A stretch of DNA of 64,000 nt. It comes from Psychromonas sp. L1A2. Its GTDB lineage: Bacteria; Pseudomonadota; Gammaproteobacteria; Enterobacterales; Psychromonadaceae. The stretch is from positions 2,108,001-2,172,000 of the forward strand of contig NZ_WUAG01000001.1 in the NCBI RefSeq assembly GCF_009828855.1. Direction: 5' to 3'. The position numbers and the translations under genes are program-made. A model generated the notes under the pieces. That model was given only the letters and a program-made list of their open reading frames with translations. It was not told the origin of the DNA and searched no databases. Below, in pieces: positions 97 through 50,475 of the stretch. Each line of letters begins with the position of its first letter. The first letter of the stretch is position 1.

Positions 97-209
97 GGTG
101 GTAGACCTCCCAGCAAACTCTCGGCACTTGAATCACCTACTATGGCTGCTGCCTTCCGGCTCTGACCAGGTTAATAAGTTATCAATGCGAGAAACCAAGA
201 GGCCTACCA
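97..209 (-). ncRNA. ffs: Signal recognition particle 4.5S RNA
   Basis: The minus strand carries the near-invariant SRP RNA apical core CCTGGTCAG-x-GCCGGAAGGCAGCAGCC (around positions 145-175). This is the Ffh-binding domain IV loop with its GGAA tetraloop and asymmetric internal loop. The 5' GGTAGGCCTC (about 200-209) pairs with the 3' GAGGTCTACC (about 100-109), closing a hairpin of about 113 nt, the usual size of the bacterial 4.5S form without an Alu domain. The RNA joins Ffh to target nascent inner-membrane proteins. The exact ends are estimated from the terminal pairing. Confidence 0.93.
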
Positions 210-43942: not shown

Positions 43943-44791
43943 AGTAGTACTCCTGTAGTGTTATAAAGACATTCCTTAGTCGGTTTTATAATAAGAATTG
44001 TTAACGACTAAACAATTGCTAAAAATAGTCTAAGAGCTACACTTCCAAGTGTATAGCATGTTATTTATTACAACTAACAAGGAAAAAACTATGAACAAAA
44101 AAGTGCACTAGATAGGTGCGATAAAAATATTTTTTGCAATATTATGAGGCGTTTTTACCAAGAATTTACGGTGAAATTAACGAAAAACAGTGATTTTTCG
44201 TAGAATGAAGAAAATTATGTATTAGAAATTATTTTTTAAAAAAGTCATAAAATTCGTATTATGAGTCGTTTTTTCCCCTAATTTTTACCAATATCTCTTT
44301 AGCTAATATCAATACGCCTTAAACTCATACCAGAATGATCATTCCTGAAACACTCGATAAATATTCAATTAGAATCCTAAAGGGTCAAATTTTGATGTGT
44401 TATTGAACGGGGAAAATAGCATAAAGATATTGGTAAAATAGAAGATAAAATAGACGCAAATATCACCTTTTAACCTTTCAAAGAATAAATTTTCACATTC
44501 ACATTATTCAAAAACAAGAGATAACCAATACCAATCAAACCAAAACGTGAGTTGATGTCCTGTTTTGCCTGAAGCGTTATATAAAATTTCATATAACGCT
44601 TTCGCTAGCATTAACTTAACGCAAAGCACTGCAAAAGGATGAGTAAAAAGCAAACAAGAAAAAATGAAGAAGCTTGAACTGGATTGGGAAACGATCGGTA
44701 TCAGTCTTTTGCCGCCTTTTTTGTCTGGTAAATTTAACTTTAAAAAGCATATTAAAAGTTAAAAGCTCTGTATTCCAGCTTGGGGTATTGA
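43943..44791. other. Long gap upstream of the TAXI operon, with two dyads
   Basis: No credible gene. ATTGTT-N8-AACAAT (about 43998-44017) lies 55 to 75 bases upstream of the TAXI gene and is a candidate regulator site. A perfect palindrome GAATGATCATTC lies at 44333-44344. AGCGTTATAT and ATATAACGCT (about 44571-44602) form a 10-bp hairpin with a short loop. Short open frames here have no ribosome-binding sites and unlikely compositions. Confidence 0.4.
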
Positions 44792-45062
44792 TGGAAAGGA
44801 AAGAAAACACACACATGCAAAGAATGCAGACTAAAGTCAGCGCCCCAAAGTTAAAGCTTGTTTTACTAGGTTGCTAATATCATCGTTCACAAAAAATGAT
44901 CAATAATGGAATCAGTAATATGTTTTTAGTTGGGTAAGGTTGGCAATCATTAAAAGGAGATGAGGATTAACATTCACTATTCATAACAGGATGCCCCCCG
45001 TGTGGAGCTGCATTTAGGTTGGTGTGGTAGCTGGAAGTTAGGCACCTCAAGCTACCCTATTA
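44792..45062 (+). repeat. Accessory-region block repeat, copy 1 (group II intron-like 3' end, degraded)
   Basis: Shares with copies 2 and 3 the stretch GCAAAGAATGCAGACTAAAG and the later TTAACATTCACTATTCAT. At 44989-45062 it has a degraded version of the structured 3' tip (…GGTTGGTGTGG…GCTACCCTAT). It is less well preserved than the others. It ends just before the 3' end of the dehydrogenase gene, which is on the other strand. Confidence 0.65.
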
Positions 45063-45068
45063 GCTTTA

Positions 45069-45776
45069 TTAAAACGGTAACTGCTCACCATTAAAACTAT
45101 AAAGGCTTCCCGTATTATCAATCGATAAATTCCGAATAACTTTCATAATGCCGAGTGCCGAATCAACAACATTTTCACTTGCTGTAGATCCGCCCATATC
45201 TGTTTGAACCCAACCGGGATGAACAGCCACCACAGCAACATTATCATTAACAAGTTCTTTTGATAAATTCACTACTAGCATATTAGCTGCTGCTTTAGAC
45301 ATTCGATAACCATACCAATCCACACTTTGTTCTAGCGACAAAGATCCCATAGCAGAAGAAATAACCGCTATCTTACATAAGCTTTTTTTATTCATTAGAG
45401 GTAAAAAGCAATGAGTTAAATATAGTGGCCCAAGTGAATTCACTTTAAAACACATTTCAGCATTAGCATAATCAATACTATGGATACTTGTATTTTCTCG
45501 ATCCAAATATCCCGCATTATTTACTATTAAATCTAACTTGATATTTTCCTCGCTAAGTTTACCTGCCAACGTCTTAATATTTTCAGGACAAGTGATATCC
45601 ATTAATTCAAGAAACAATTTATCAGGAAACTGACCTTTCAATGAAACTAGATCAACCGCCGATTCTAGATTTCTACAGGTAGCAATGACTGTCCATCCAT
45701 TTATCAAGTATTGTCTTGTTAATTCGAAACCGATGCCTCTATTAGCACCAGTTATTAATACAACTACGTTATTCAT
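45069..45776 (-). CDS. Short-chain dehydrogenase/reductase (C-factor-like), putative integron cassette gene
   Basis: A 235-residue classical SDR: NADP-binding TGANRGIGFEL (about 9-19), NNAGYLD, catalytic Ser in VISSAMGSL and YGYRMSKAAANM with the YxxxK pair, then HPGWVQTDMGG. It resembles the CsgA/C-factor SDR group, whose substrates are mostly unknown. The gene stands alone between two copies of the block repeat. Its start codon lies 14 bases from a GTTAGAT core next to an attachment-site-like hairpin, as expected for an integron cassette gene. Confidence 0.85.
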   Translation of the reverse strand: MNNVVVLITGANRGIGFELTRQYLINGWTVIATCRNLESAVDLVSLKGQFPDKLFLELMDITCPENIKTLAGKLSEENIKLDLIVNNAGYLDRENTSIHSIDYANAEMCFKVNSLGPLYLTHCFLPLMNKKSLCKIAVISSAMGSLSLEQSVDWYGYRMSKAAANMLVVNLSKELVNDNVAVVAVHPGWVQTDMGGSTASENVVDSALGIMKVIRNLSIDNTGSLYSFNGEQLPF

Positions 45777-45789
45777 TGTTTACCTATAA

Positions 45790-45826
45790 ATCTAACGAGG
45801 CTGTAGAATTTCTGATTCTCAGCCCG
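45790..45826. repeat. attC-like hairpin upstream of the dehydrogenase gene
   Basis: On the plus strand ATCTAAC is followed by GA, then GGCTG-t-AGAAT-TTCTG-ATTCT-CAGCC: a 10-bp stem with a single extrahelical base. ATCTAAC fits the integron simple-site consensus RYYYAAC exactly (GTTAGAT on the other strand). The opposite core site is not recognisable, as would follow from insertion of the intron-like block next to it. The same hairpin recurs at 47728. Confidence 0.55.
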
Positions 45827-45984
45827 AATTTTAACTGTAAAAACACAGTATTTTATATTTACTTGAAATTCAAATAGATTATTGATTTTTCAATAATTTT
45901 GGACATATATGGTTACCACTTCCCCCACTATTAATCGTGAAAGTTTATGGAGGTCTATTACTTTACCTTTCCACGAAGGGTATT

Positions 45985-46391
45985 TGAAGAAAGGAACACA
46001 GATGCAAAGAATGCAGACTAAAGTCAGCGCCCCAAATTCAAAGGCTACCAATTGACGATTGAATTTGATCATTGGATCTGCCGTTGACTGCGTATGTCTT
46101 TCCCGTCAATAAAACTGGCGAAAGTGAGAGCATTGATCAAACTCGGTGTCTGTGATGGTTTAGCCACTTTTTGTGCCTGTGGATTTATAAAAGTATAAGT
46201 AAATTACCTTGTCATAATTCACAAAAAAAGGATTCAATAGTGCGATCAGTAATTAGTTTTAGCCAGACAAGGTTTGATGTCATTAAAAGATTTGTGGATT
46301 AATATTCACTATTCATCATAAGATGAACTGCGCGGTGCCGTATGCAGGGTAGTGTGGAGGCTTGAGGTTAGATAACTCCTGCTACCCGATT
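45985..46391 (+). repeat. Accessory-region block repeat, copy 2 (group II intron-like 3' end)
   Basis: About 400 bases closely similar to copy 3 at 48121-48547. The 3' tip (46326-46391) reads GAGGCTTGAGGTTAGATAAC…CTGCTACCCGAT, a domain VI-like hairpin with an adenosine 7 bases from the end. The domain V-like stem before it is partly mutated. The TAA stop of the neighbouring minus-strand gene overlaps the repeat boundary; the bases there read GCCTAA on the minus strand, matching an integron RYYYAA half-site. Confidence 0.65.
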
Positions 46392-47034
46392 AGGCATATG
46401 ATTCAATGATTGGAACAAGATGTTCAAAGTTTTCTTTACACGATTTAATTACTTTGTCGTAAATAATTTGATCATCTGTTTCATGAAATTCTATGCACAT
46501 ATAATAATTTTCAGAGTTGACTTTAGCAAAAACAATCCACTCTCTAGTTAATTGGTTGCGCTCGGATCTCTTTTCAAAGAGCTCATGGTTACCTAAACTA
46601 ATATCTCTAGCTAGTGCTTTACAGTTTTCAACAGTGCTATCTAAACCTTCATATTTTTCAAATGCCTTTTTAATAACAGATTCTATATTTCCTCGGCTAT
46701 TAGCAATTTGCATATTTTTAGCAATAAACTGAGAAGAAAAAAAGTGCTTATGCCAAAGCCCCTTCAAAGGTAATTTAGAAAATTTAGTTTCTTGTTTAGT
46801 ACGGCTTTCCGTAACTGTACACTCTAAAGCTCGGAGTTCTTCAAATATCATTGAGGGGTTTAAGCCTACAGTATTGGCATATAAGTAGAGATCTAATAGA
46901 AAACGTTCACTACACCTTGCTCTTATATTTTCATCTCTAATAAAAAATACGGATAAAGCTTCTAAATCTTTAGGAGTTACAGTGAGAACTTCATTGTTAC
47001 GATCTATTTGATAAGTATTTGTAAATCGGATCAA
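46390..47034 (-). CDS. Uncharacterised cassette protein, second gene of a pair
   Basis: A 214-residue soluble protein without a signal peptide or membrane helix and with no family I recognise. It is rich in charged residues and probably mixed alpha/beta; a C-terminal part (about 160-214) contains WIVFAKVNSENYYMCIEFHE. It follows the membrane/coiled-coil gene by 26 bases on the same strand, so the two are co-expressed. The pair is bounded by an attC-like hairpin on one side and a block repeat on the other, suggesting they moved as one unit. A toxin-antitoxin or defence role is possible but unproven. Confidence 0.7.
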   Translation of the reverse strand: MIRFTNTYQIDRNNEVLTVTPKDLEALSVFFIRDENIRARCSERFLLDLYLYANTVGLNPSMIFEELRALECTVTESRTKQETKFSKLPLKGLWHKHFFSSQFIAKNMQIANSRGNIESVIKKAFEKYEGLDSTVENCKALARDISLGNHELFEKRSERNQLTREWIVFAKVNSENYYMCIEFHETDDQIIYDKVIKSCKENFEHLVPIIESYA

Positions 47035-47060
47035 ATTAACTCCTCATGCCTCGTTATGTT

Positions 47061-47711
47061 TTACTTTGTACCATTAGCTTTGATATTTCTATTTTTACAT
47101 TGATAAAATTGATATCTTAGCGAATTTATTTGGTCTGTAAAAACATCATCTGAATCATATGTAGCAAAGTCTTCAAGGAACTTTTCAAAACAATTAAATG
47201 TATCAATATTATGCTCAATATCATTTGCGTTAAGGTTCGGTAAACAATTTTCGTTAATCATGTTTGTTACACGACGGAGATTTAAATTATCTTTTCCTTT
47301 AATGAAAAAAATAGATGCATTTACAAAACTTTCAAAAGCACTAAACCACCTCTGTTGATCAAAATTACTGCAGCCTTGAACATGACAAATCCCTCCTTTG
47401 GCATTATCAAACTTTCTATTAAGTTCATCTTCCATTTCAGATAGTTTAGATTTAAGAATTTTTTCTTTTTCGTCATATTCGGCTTTTATTTCTTTGACGG
47501 CTATTTCTAATTCAGCTTTCATTTTCTCAATTAGGGAATTTTCAATTACTTCATGTTCCAACTTAAATAAACGCTTTTGATAAATTGTAACCAAAATTGG
47601 GAGGATAATTCCTGAAAATGCTAGCACAGCGACAGTTATGGTAATTAGATGACCGAATGATTGTGAGTAGAAATTATTTACAGTTTCTAATATTTTAAGT
47701 GAATCTTGCAT
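47061..47711 (-). CDS. Membrane-anchored coiled-coil protein, first gene of a pair
   Basis: A 216-residue protein: one N-terminal membrane helix (about 20-43, ITITVAVLAFSGIILPILVTI), a coiled coil (about 50-100, rich in E and K), then a C-terminal globular part with two cysteines (CHVQGC, about 109-114) and an aromatic/acidic tail. I recognise no family. The architecture of a membrane anchor plus a cytosolic sensing or effector part resembles many two-gene defence or stress cassettes, but no catalytic motif is visible. The ATG lies close downstream of the hairpin at 47728. Confidence 0.7.
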   Translation of the reverse strand: MQDSLKILETVNNFYSQSFGHLITITVAVLAFSGIILPILVTIYQKRLFKLEHEVIENSLIEKMKAELEIAVKEIKAEYDEKEKILKSKLSEMEDELNRKFDNAKGGICHVQGCSNFDQQRWFSAFESFVNASIFFIKGKDNLNLRRVTNMINENCLPNLNANDIEHNIDTFNCFEKFLEDFATYDSDDVFTDQINSLRYQFYQCKNRNIKANGTK

Positions 47712-47727
47712 TAACTCTCCGTGTAAA

Positions 47728-47770
47728 AAATAACGAGGCTGTAGAATTTTTCATTTTCAGCCTGTTTATT
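47728..47770. repeat. attC-like hairpin upstream of the cassette gene pair
   Basis: Plus strand: AAATAAC-GA-GGCTG-t-AGAAT-TTTTC-ATTTT-CAGCC-T-GTTTATT. The stem, the position of the unpaired base and the spacing to the flanking core are the same as at 45790. Outer cores AAATAAC and GTTTATT pair at five of seven positions. It lies 17 bases from the start codon of the gene ending at 47061. Confidence 0.55.
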
Positions 47771-48120
47771 TTAAATAAAAATCACAGTAGCTTACATTTA
47801 CTTGAGATTAAATAGATTATTTTATTTTTATTAACTAATTGATTAAATTGAGTCATAAATGAGATTAAAGGGCTAAACATGCGGGATTTATTGAGTTAAG
47901 GGCTTAGCCATTGCTTTAATGTAAATTATTCCTTAACTTCTCGCTGCTCAGGAAAAAAATGAACAAGACAATACATTTCCCATTGATGATTTTTTAAGAG
48001 TTGGCTTTATCTTGGCCGCGCACAGTGACTTTATTCACCGTAATATTATCGAGTTTTACTTTAAAGAAAGTTGAAAAGTACATTCAAAGTTAAAAGCTTT
48101 ATATTCCCATGAGGGACATT
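47771..48120. other. Non-coding stretch with a possible gene fragment
   Basis: No intact gene. One frame on the plus strand between about 47950 and 48075 reads …EQDNTFPIDDFLRVGFIL…HRNIIEFYFKES before a stop, without a start codon. It looks protein-like and could be a fragment of a lost gene, but I do not recognise it. Confidence 0.3.
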
Positions 48121-48547
48121 TAAAGAAAGGAAAACACACACATGCAAAGAGTGCAGACTAAAGTCAGCGCCTCAAAGTCAAAGGCTACCAATTGATGATT
48201 GAATTTGATCTGCCGTTGACTTCGTATGCCTTTCCCGTCAATAAAACTGGCGGCAACGGAAAAACGATCGAAGGTGAGAACATTGATCAAACTCGGTGTC
48301 GGTGATGGTTTAGTCACTTCTTGTGCCTGTGGATTTATAAAAGTATAAGTAAATTCCCTTGCATAATTCACAAACCAAAGGGATCAATAGTGCGATCAGT
48401 AATGAGTTTTTAGCCAGACAAGGTTTGATATCATTAAAGGATTTGTGGATTAATATTGACTATTCATCATAAGATGAACCGCCCTGTTCGGAGCCGCATG
48501 CAGGGTGGTGTGGGGGCTTGAGGTTAGAGACCTCCGGCTACCCGATT
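48121..48547 (+). repeat. Accessory-region block repeat, copy 3 (best-preserved group II intron-like 3' end)
   Basis: The 3' tip at 48476-48547 can fold as a group II intron domain V. CCGCCCTG (48479-48486) pairs with CAGGGTGG (48501-48508), with a 2-base bulge (TG) on the 3' side and a short upper stem closed by GAGC. A domain VI-like hairpin follows (GAGGT/ACCTC core), with an unpaired A in GGCTACCCGAT, 7 bases from the end, where the branch-point adenosine belongs. No reverse transcriptase frame and no convincing intron 5' end are present, so it is a relic. Confidence 0.65.
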
Positions 48548-48557
48548 ATATACGTTT

Positions 48558-48821
48558 TTAGAGTATGATATATAAAAACATACCGTATACAAACACATTG
48601 AAAAATATGGCAAAAGCATAACCTTTTTCACCTTTATAAAACCAATGGCCTAATGAATATGTCTTACTGCTTTGCATTTTTAATTGGAAGACAGACATAT
48701 CTTTACTTGGTTTATGAGGGAGAGCAAGGACGAAAATACGATTAAATAAAACCCAACATATCAAATTTAAATTTTGTAAAAAAAAAGCGATTCCAAAGGT
48801 AATCTCAACAATGTTATGCAT
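48558..48821 (-). CDS. Small membrane protein, putative first integron cassette
   Basis: Hydrophobic segments at both ends (NIVEITFGIAFFLQNLNLI and FAIFFNVFVYGMFLYIIL) surround a charged centre. I recognise no family. The start is taken as ATG 48821 (MHNIVEITFG, 87 residues), 6 bases after a GAG-type site. A longer form from ATG 48863 (MEFFGLINCY, 101 residues) has a weaker site. It is the array gene nearest the broken integrase gene, the position of the most recently gained cassette in an integron. Confidence 0.6.
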   Translation of the reverse strand: MHNIVEITFGIAFFLQNLNLICWVLFNRIFVLALPHKPSKDMSVFQLKMQSSKTYSLGHWFYKGEKGYAFAIFFNVFVYGMFLYIIL

Positions 48822-48863
48822 ATTCACTCGTATATAACAGTTTATCAAACCGAAAAATTCCAT

Positions 48864-49066
48864 ATTTAAGGTGGAAATTCGGAATAGTTTAATTTGTTAA
48901 AATTAACATAAAAATGCATTTATCGTGCATAAAATCAAACAATTAATATTTTTAATCAAATTACTGTCATGTGGACAGATGGAAAAAGTCCGTATTAACA
49001 ATAGAAACATCGAATACCAACGACGCTGTATATAAAAATAGTTAAAGGATTAAAGGAGAGAAATAA
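48864..49066. other. Region expected to hold the integron attI site and cassette promoter
   Basis: It lies between the divergent first array gene and the intI remnant, where attI and the Pc promoter sit in integrons. AACGACGCTGTA at 49019-49030 resembles the AACGAGGCTGTA that starts both hairpins at 45794 and 47731. TACCAAC beside it matches only part of RYYYAAC. No exact core site could be assigned. Confidence 0.35.
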
Positions 49067-49200
49067 ATGAACTCTCCATTTTTAAACGCTGTAGCGGAAA
49101 GTATATGAGCTAAGGAATATGGGTTAAATTCTATGCTGAAAAATCTATTAGGACTTATTTTTATTGGGCAGGTTTAAGTTGCATAATAACCTTATATTGA
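49067..49200 (+). pseudogene. intI: 5' fragment of an integron integrase gene (frameshifted)
   Basis: ATG 49067 follows AGGAG by about 9 bases and reads MNSPFLNAVAESI, then a TGA in place of the expected arginine codon, then AKEYG. After an apparent 11-base insertion (about 49121-49131) the next frame (from 49132) continues YAEKSIRTYFYW. Joined, KEYYAEKSIRTYFYW aligns with the N-terminal SAM-like domain of Vibrio-type IntIA (RYYAKKTIEAYLHWI as I recall it), and MNSPFLNAV with its MKSQFLLSV start. The homology is lost after about 45 codons, so the catalytic domain is deleted. It faces away from the cassette genes, as intI does. Confidence 0.7.
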
Positions 49201-49335
49201 CTTTAATAATGAATAACATCTCTTGAATTCAAGTGATAAGTGAAATCACTAAATTGCTTTGTGCCCTTTCCGACTTAAGTCTTTGTATCAAAAGCCTCTC
49301 CAAAACAGCTTAAAAGAGGCGGTGGTTTTATAAAT
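49201..49335. other. Gap between intI remnant and DinB-like gene
   Basis: No gene is seen. AAGCCTCT…AGAGGCGG near 49290-49323 may form a weak hairpin past the stop of the DinB-like gene. Confidence 0.35.
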
Positions 49336-49872
49336 TTAATTCACATTTGGCTGTATAAACACTAAATCTGTAATACCAATATCAATACCTGATTGACTGA
49401 GAAGCGTGGTGATTTGGCCTCTATGATGTGTTTGATGGTTAAACAAGTGCATCAACAGATTAAAAAGCGTTTTATTAGCGGTAACACCTTTACTATTTTG
49501 GTAATTAATTGGCTGTAACAATGCTTCATCGGTTAATAAACTTGTTAATTCGAGTAATGCTTCATCTAACAATACGCGACGATCTTTAAGGTCATTAAAG
49601 TTATTGGCGAGAAACACATCCAGTGATTCAGGCATTGGTAATGCGGCAATAGGCGCATAAGCGTCATATGTTTGTAAAACAACTGAGCATCGTTTTAACC
49701 ACAAGGTATCAGCAACACAAATATGATTTAACGAGGCAAAAACAGAACCAAAATACGCGCCTTTATCTTCATGGTATTTTTCTGGTGTCATTGTATTCAC
49801 TGCTTCGTATATTTTTTGATTCATCCACTGGTTATAGTCTGCCATTAAGTAGACATGTTCCTTCAGTTCCAT
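49336..49872 (-). CDS. DinB/YfiT-family four-helix-bundle protein
   Basis: A 178-residue DinB-like fold. Three metal-ligand histidines are suggested by LNHICVADTLWLKR (His about 50), HLFNHQTHHRGQIT (two to three His about 140-147) and the bundle pattern in between. Members are often metal-dependent, thiol-using transferases or hydrolases; the name does not imply DNA damage induction. Substrate unknown. It is the first ordinary gene to the right of the integron-like region. Confidence 0.82.
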   Translation of the reverse strand: MELKEHVYLMADYNQWMNQKIYEAVNTMTPEKYHEDKGAYFGSVFASLNHICVADTLWLKRCSVVLQTYDAYAPIAALPMPESLDVFLANNFNDLKDRRVLLDEALLELTSLLTDEALLQPINYQNSKGVTANKTLFNLLMHLFNHQTHHRGQITTLLSQSGIDIGITDLVFIQPNVN

Positions 49873-50124
49873 AAAAAGGGTTTCCTTGCTTGGTCTTAAG
49901 AGAGATGGCGGGATTGTAATATTATTTTAGCAATGTACACCCTATTTAATTTCACTATTTTAAAAAGTGCTCAATACAAAATCTGTCATGCTAATGATTG
50001 AATGGAAGTGATTCAATCAACCGACTTATGAAAATCTAGCATTGATAAGTTAAATTGCTCGCCTTTTCACACTGAGACGTTACAATTATTTAACCTTTTA
50101 AAATATTAACGATAGAGAGTGAAA

Positions 50125-50475
50125 ATGATTGAACGTCAACAAACCAAACAACGTATGAGCCGAGTAGTTAAGCATAACGGTACTGTTTATTTATGTGGTC
50201 AAGTCTGTGCTGATGCGACTAAAGACATCAAAGAACAAACACAAACTATGTTAGACAAAGTAGATAAGCTTTTGATTGAATCAGGTAGTTCTCGTGAGCA
50301 TATGTTATCAGCGACTGTTTATGTTAAAGATATGGCATTACATTTTGCTGGCATGAATGAAGTATGGGATGCATGGGTTCCTGAAGGCTTTGCCCCTGCT
50401 CGTGCATGTGTAGAAGCAAGTATGGCAAGAGATGTGTTATTAGTTGAAATTTCGGTTATTGCTGCTGTTAAATAG
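50125..50475 (+). CDS. RidA-family (YjgF/Rid) imine/enamine deaminase
   Basis: A 116-residue trimeric Rid-type protein. [14 protein letters not shown] at the start, the conserved arginine in [14 protein letters not shown] and the glutamate in [11 protein letters not shown] mark a catalytic-type Rid protein that hydrolyses reactive enamines/imines from PLP enzymes. It belongs to a Rid subgroup (RidA_like) rather than being a clear orthologue of E. coli RidA. The start is set at ATG 50125, about 6 bases after AGAGAG; an in-frame GTG at 50119 overlaps that site. Monocistronic. Confidence 0.85.

Follow-up and report, generated by a model that had tools for sequence, protein, structure and literature searches.

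Sedentary chromosomal integrons and clusters of attC sites lacking integron-integrases (CALINs) are among the described systems closest to the gene array analyzed here, which lies within a 64,000-nucleotide stretch of Psychromonas sp. L1A2 DNA (the window; C1:2108001-2172000 of a 4.34-Mb host genome in two contigs). The likeness consists of an attI region with a stub of the integrase gene intI, antiparallel cassette genes and matching between the R'' and R' cores of cassettes, whereas in our locus the integrase is broken and the attC hairpins are replaced by the ends of a group II intron and an insertion sequence (IS). Both elements have known counterparts (PubMed Central records are cited here for the parts of their text that were available). 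Group IIC-attC introns, such as S.ma.I2 and the 5'-truncated UHB.F1, share the insertion site, TTGT/T within R'', and the antisense orientation relative to the cassettes, and 5'-truncated copies in arrays have been reported previously, UHB.F1 being one example (PMC8876359, PMC7923331); however, in our locus the 3' end alone remains at all three cassette units, as in many relatives, and is fused to an IS end. The IS resembles the IS1182 family (IS1272 and others) in transposase type. Some members of this family were reported to target palindromes, and IS1272 to replace a hairpin without duplication (PMC5678879), whereas the element described here sits mostly in the attC R' core, with a 3-bp GTT duplication and in a fixed orientation. 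The IS1111-attC group (ISKpn4, ISPst6) also targets one attC end, but it belongs to the IS1111/IS110 family and uses a DEDD transposase with a guide RNA (PMC11187229), whereas our element is of the DDE/IS1182 type by Pfam and NCBIfam. Finally, ISAjo2-type IS of the IS1202 family show orientation-specific insertion beside a tyrosine-recombinase site (pdif/dif), but differ in transposase family, in their 5-bp duplication and in their position, 5 bp off the XerC site and outside the core (PMC10132070).

Our analysis suggested that the locus is very probably the remnant of a chromosomal integron whose attC sites were destroyed by two attC-targeting mobile elements. It retains attI, the intI stub and three cassette units, whose four genes are all encoded on the minus strand (Table 1). 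An initial annotation, made from the sequence alone, had already proposed a decayed chromosomal integron with a broken intI on the strand opposite to its cassettes and had named similarity to IntI as a test beforehand; both the geometry and the similarity were found. First, positions 48835-49167 aligned with the attI region and the start of the intact integrase gene of the relative G006 (76% identity, 333 columns, E 5e-66), with a local score of 504, where 100 shuffles gave no more than 253; the intI coding part alone scored 184, compared with 150 in 200 shuffles. In a wider alignment the intI similarity reached approximately 49217, so that about 150 nt of intI, interrupted by frame-breaking insertions, are left, and most of the gene is gone ahead of a DinB-family gene that ends at 49336. 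The relative G009 carries an equivalent stub (95.5% identical in the alignment of 48833-50200), and thus intI was probably lost before the host genome and G009 separated. Elsewhere in the host genome, we found a stop-free IntI frame of 328 amino acids (aa; C2:112967-113914) and a 296-aa IntI frame without the N-terminus (C1:1098510-1099370). Outside the window there were also seven 296-aa tyrosine recombinase frames with identical integron-integrase model scores, in groups spaced 3.2-3.7 kb (Table 1).

Second, three 5'-truncated group II intron 3' ends, which the initial annotation had overlooked, were identified on the plus strand. These repeats stop at 45060, 46390 and 48546, in each case where a cassette gene ends or at most about 10 nt away. 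The best copy was detected with Rfam, and the other two, unreported by Rfam up to E 5, were recognised through their similarity to it. Decayed C-termini of the group II reverse transcriptase (RT) were found by tblastn upstream of two of the three ends. The copies retain approximately 336, 299 and (detectably) 65 nt, and the lack of domains I-III and of most of the RT marks them as remnants. Seven full-length relatives, 1.95-1.97 kb in size, begin with GTACGCCC after an attC arm ending in TTGT, with a 5' junction of TTGT/GTACGCC and a 3' junction of CCCGAT/T; the published target of IIC-attC introns is TTGT/T in R'' (PMC7923331). Insertion at this site, antisense to the cassettes, is visible at the 3' junction in the window, and the 5' junction was seen in relatives only.

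Truncation of these introns was widespread. Ten matches in the host genome (the most decayed window copy not among them) reached the intron 3' end and none covered the first ~550 nt, and no long RT was found there, the best RT match being 33 residues. Sixteen matches reached the 3' end in G009, where no 5' end was found. Among the 76 copies with at least 2000 nt of upstream sequence, 58 retained nothing 5' of position 1500, and 11 extended into the intron's first 30 nt, 8 of these covering more than 1900 nt; in the Psychromonas set, the 5' end was not reached by any of the 32 copies. These counts come from copies gathered via their 3' ends, which misses 3'-truncated introns, and the search of the genus with the intron 5' end gives the fairer comparison. 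We also considered the repeats as mobile introns without an open reading frame (ORF) and rejected this candidate, domains I-III being absent and the first ~550 nt unmatched in the host genome. The sequence TGGGTGTC was noted near the truncation point of several introns (L070, L141, L172, L196 and L212) and may be the end of another IS.

Third, the two cores of the cassettes matched across the intron ends. An intron located in R'' predicts that GT joined to the 3' exon reproduces the R' core found at the opposite end of that cassette. In the window, this match held for two of the three units: cassette 1 (TATATACG against GTTATATACG, 8/8 letters) and cassette 3 (TAGCTTTAT against GTTAGATTTAT, 8/9). 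For cassette 1, the start at 48821 would be preferred because the longer ORF (to 48863) crosses the recombination point. A total of 119 intron-end entries were collected, 16 of which were dropped owing to less than 1200 nt of downstream sequence or a 3' exon not starting with T (including L112, which was without intron similarity). Among the remaining 103 intron ends, 75 matched at 9 or 10 of 10 letters, compared with 13.3% when R'' was permuted among loci, and 40 at all 10 letters (0.8% permuted); the AAC anchor predetermines three of these ten letters in both the data and the control. The 9-10/10 matches were distributed as 22/32 in the Psychromonas set and 53/71 in the named set. The exact 7-letter core was present in 78 of the 103 (23% permuted), and beyond this core, positions 8 and 9 matched in 66/78 and 63/78, respectively, versus 27% and 30%. 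With regard to sampling, 80 of 113 matching stretches were used for the pattern-collected loci, and the collecting pattern ends in TA, which biased the 3' exons of those loci towards a TA start (85/86); among the 33 Psychromonas entries found by similarity, 32 had a T at the first position and 30 an A at the second. Because R''/R' matching far exceeded the permuted level, genes bearing such intron ends are, on this sequence comparison, cassettes as a group. The three cassettes of the initial annotation were thus real as units, with intron 3' ends in their R'' cores and, in two of the three, matching R''/R', and its short-chain dehydrogenase/reductase (SDR) cassette was confirmed by Pfam (Table 1); the attC hairpins on which it had relied were not what they appeared to be (see below). 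The three non-SDR cassette genes had nothing above the cut-off in Pfam or NCBIfam. Neither an intact attC nor an intact integrase gene was seen in the array (no attC was recognised between cassettes, and no attC covariance model was run), as would be expected of unrelated genes lying amid repeated intron and IS debris; the attI/intI alignment (E 5e-66) and the R''/R' matching contradict such an explanation, which we regard as almost certainly wrong.

The initial annotation had read hairpins at 45797-45824 and 47735-47762 as attC-like. These do exist, as termini of an IS1182-type element rather than as attC sites. Both open with GAGGCTGTAGAATTT immediately after the AAC of R'. In G006, beside the intact intI, the hairpin sequence is the right end of an 1847-bp element with perfect 18-bp inverted repeats, whose 510-aa transposase contains the Pfam domains DDE_Tnp_1_6 and DUF772. 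In the window, one IS end only is left and the transposase is gone; the remnant starting at 47735 may reach ~48060. IS copies in G009 still show the transposase C-terminus. The host genome contained ten partial IS matches, the longest of 246 bp, with no complete IS and no long transposase match. We had folded and aligned the hairpins as attC before the match to a complete IS led us to reject them. That they are short genuine attC sites, and the array a plain decayed integron, is suggested by the pairing of the hairpins with a single unpaired base directly at R' and by the further pairing that R' and the opposite arm can form in 47725-47774. However, the hairpin forms the terminus of a complete IS bounded by matching 18-bp inverted repeats, one such element lying in an ORF, and it is missing from the right ends of L325, L329 and L331 (another genus), which still border R'. 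In addition, the adjacent arm mismatches the cassettes' own R', and it is the letters beyond the intron that match. We therefore consider genuine attC sites at these positions very improbable.

The IS ends showed a preference for the attC R' core. In the fetched loci of relatives, all 20 IS left ends followed GTT, 17 of them GCGTT, and 45 of 52 right ends bordered GTT (read as AAC), in counts that pool complete and remnant IS ends with orthologues unmerged; the GTT and AAC triplets each make up ~2% of these loci. GCGTT is a usual end of attC. All 14 near-complete elements were flanked by GTT on both sides: 11 were in typical attC flanks (judged by eye and by folding), 1 in an ORF and 2 beside a flank of unexceptional fold. 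Moreover, 17 of the 20 left flanks, the ORF insertion included, folded better than 95% of 300 random 100-mers from the window. The same flanks were observed in other genera (9/9 left and 8/8 right ends), even for an element with 45% transposase identity. These comprised four genera by code plus Pseudoalteromonas and Catenovulum records, with possible overlap and with plasmid records among them; the ends came from 18 pattern hits, L328 (4260) being excluded as off-element, and left and right were assigned by hand. No reversed orientation was seen among relatives and other genera.

A different explanation for this position is that the 1.85-kb element is itself a gene cassette carrying a transposase gene, placed between attC and R' by IntI. 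Its borders do coincide with cassette borders (G/TT), its orientation is cassette-like and its right end folds as an attC-like hairpin in Psychromonas. On the other hand, perfect 18-bp inverted repeats at both ends and an IS1182-type DDE transposase are those of an IS, and the hairpin is not kept in L325, L329, L331, L316 and L317. In G034, five copies at least 99.7% identical were present at five loci, one copy lying within an ORF between two GTT triplets, which speaks for transposition; a cassette origin thus appeared very unlikely. Instead, it seems likely that an IS1182-family clade of several marine gammaproteobacterial genera is specialised to attC R', in one orientation, with a GTT duplication and probably via the folded attC, and that this clade and the group IIC-attC introns, each acting on one end of attC, jointly inactivate the site and so fix mobile cassettes. 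By analogy, the foot of the attC hairpin is the probable recognition site of the transposase, since IS1182 members were reported to target palindromes and the unrelated IS1111 elements target attC. No report of attC targeting by IS1182-family elements was found among the papers listed by our searches of the Creative Commons-licensed PubMed Central literature, mostly judged on titles and the starts of abstracts, and the available part of PMC10057117 contained no mention of 'attC'.

Based on these observations, we propose the following route. A group IIC-attC intron would have occupied the attC R'' core (GT/T), antisense to the cassettes, and the R' core would have received an IS1182-family element, in a fixed orientation and with duplication of GTT. 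The attC hairpin between the two would then have been lost through deletions that brought the right-hand portion of the IS up to the 3' portion of the intron, so that a gene with its R'' is followed by the intron 3' end, the linker, the IS right end and the R' that precedes the next gene. Recombination in the intron and IS stretches that the copies have in common may have carried this junction to several cassettes. As the hairpin between R'' and R' would be gone, IntI could no longer use these sites, and the cassettes would be fixed in an array that IntI no longer shuffles. Both invaders occur together in one attC of P. arctica (L077), where R'' holds the 5' end of the intron and R' a complete IS. 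The linker includes a repeat that occurs elsewhere in the host genome without the intron; a ~50-bp repeat that forms part of the linker (window 48132-48183) recurs four times within ~1.1 kb of another cassette-like region (L069 7500-8600, reverse complement).

Comparison with G009 bears on how the junction came to lie beside several genes. In the G009 array at this locus there are at least six intron 3' ends (counted by eye) and five IS ends. The two arrays have the flanks, the intI stub and the distal SDR cassette in common; the intervening cassettes differ, and the blocks of the two arrays are 81-89% alike in longer matches. In both arrays, one and the same block meets different genes, with the boundary falling precisely at the intron 3' end and with R'' and R' remaining attached to the gene, which would fit an explanation tied to the model described in the available text of PMC7923331, in which an intron block is joined to genes and naked genes are captured. 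However, gene conversion between adjacent blocks yields the same picture, and capture of naked genes is unneeded where cassettes with matching R''/R' previously had their own attC. We consider this explanation unlikely, if less so than the two set out above for the hairpins and the IS, and favor double insertion followed by deletion. A second host array, L067, and its G009 counterpart, L072, have distal cassettes and an attI-like stretch in common and differ in the attI-proximal cassettes. No integrase gene was seen in them (L067 was read, L072 aligned), and the pattern is as if insertion at attI had continued in trans or proximal cassettes had been lost.

Several points weigh against the double-insertion reading. 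At the level of identification, the best intron copy scored 38.8 bits with Rfam RF00029 (E 3.7e-5), 1.2 under the gathering score of 40, and the G006 transposase scored 261.8 bits with the IS1182 model (E 1.3e-77), just below the cut-off of 270. The R'' and R' of unit 2 matched at only 7/10 letters, and because they differ, this unit is probably two fused cassettes; for cassette 3, the script chose a 9/10 site inside the gene, and the R' beside the IS end was equal to it by eye. Seven of the 52 IS right ends were not at AAC (three AAT, one each of CAC, GAC and AAG, and one left end caught by the pattern), and the complete IS copies L288 and L298 lie beside flanks of unremarkable fold (ranks 54 and 141 of 300). 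The L077 intron is itself broken, with its 5' 317 nt and an RT piece on opposite strands; an intermediate with both elements complete was not seen among our loci, and neither an empty nor an unbroken ancestral array of this locus was found. Finally, an IS right end was present within 1000 nt upstream in only 4 of the 33 Psychromonas intron-end entries (strict pattern), and all four lie in the host and G009 arrays. Thus, the double remnant is characteristic of this locus and not a genus rule, intron ends alone being common in the genus.

The surroundings of the array were also examined. The initial annotation had described this region as having the lowest coding density of the window, and the 5.4-kb stretch from 44001 indeed had the lowest coding fraction found (0.44; window, 0.81). 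Homologues of the DinB-family gene were present in 11 of 24 genomes, and seven loci (L106-L112) compared with ours showed no array or attI match. This comparison of synteny on the DinB side took in the window, G009 and L106-L112, the distant homologues in G003 and G012 being left out. The same gene order devoid of integron signals, which would have spoken against an integron, was not seen among the loci compared; of these, G009 alone shares the order and has the same integron signals. An inverted repeat, AAGCGTTATAT/ATATAACGCTT, is located at 44571-44602 near the distal array end, where G009 has ~60 extra bp resembling a small inverted-repeat element; it may be a terminator or the remnant of the last recombination site. 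Scanning of 44000-49400 revealed no excess of promoters or terminators (17 promoter-like sequences versus 24.2 expected; 2 terminator-like versus 3.0). The only match in the window at the Rfam gathering threshold was a bacterial small signal recognition particle RNA at 105-200 (minus strand, 65.4 bits).

Table 1. Features of the array, listed from the intI side, and integrase-like frames elsewhere in the host genome
Feature	Position	Strand	Basis
intI 5' end remnant, frame broken by insertions	49067..49217	+	DNA alignment to intact G006 intI
attI region upstream of intI	48839..49066		Conserved with G006 upstream of its intact intI; partly with other arrays
R' core of cassette 1, GTTATATACG (minus-strand reading), at attI junction	48829..48838	-	Sequence
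Cassette 1 gene, small membrane-like protein	48558..48821	-	ORF list; no Pfam match above cut-off
Cassette 1 R'' core residue, TATATACG (plus strand)	48547..48554	-	Same 8 letters as own R'
Intron 3' end, 5'-truncated group IIC-attC; decayed RT C-terminus, then domains V/VI at 48477-48546	48248..48546	+	Rfam E 3.7e-5; tblastn of RT; alignment to full-length introns
Linker between IS end and intron end	48071..48183		Includes repeat found elsewhere in genome
Right end of decayed IS1182-family element, against R' core of cassette 2; inverted repeat GAGGCTGTAGAATTT	47735..47942	-	75% identity, 216 columns, E 2e-34
R' core of cassette unit 2, GTTATTTTTT (minus strand)	47725..47734	-	Sequence
Unit 2 first gene, membrane/coiled-coil-like	47061..47711	-	ORF; no Pfam/NCBIfam match above cut-off
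Unit 2 second gene, ends at intron end	46390..47034	-	ORF; no Pfam/NCBIfam match above cut-off
Second truncated group IIC-attC intron 3' end	46055..46390	+	Similarity to other copies; RT tblastn; alignment
Right end of second IS1182-family remnant, against R' core of cassette 3	45797..45877	-	78% identity, 89 columns, E 4e-12
R' core of cassette 3, GTTAGATTTAT (minus strand)	45786..45796	-	Sequence
Cassette 3 gene, SDR	45069..45776	-	Pfam PF00106 E 1.4e-35
Cassette 3 R'' core residue, TAGCTTTAT (plus strand)	45061..45069	-	8/9 letters as own R'
Third, most decayed group II intron 3' end; similarity from ~44893	44996..45060	+	Similarity to other copies; alignment
296-aa tyrosine recombinase frames	C1:2362766, 2366479, 2370044; C2:106029, 109250, 249225, 252491		Integron-integrase model

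The array bears on the open question of how cassettes lose their mobility and how integron arrays in chromosomes decay. Introns that target attC are already known, and the attC-preferring IS1182-type clade is a candidate addition to the elements with this target. R''-to-R' matching across an intron end offers a simple test for cassettes that attC-based annotation may miss. Our locus and its relatives suggest a concrete route to cassette fixation and array decay, in which two unrelated elements would invade the same recombination site, one per core, followed by loss of the site.

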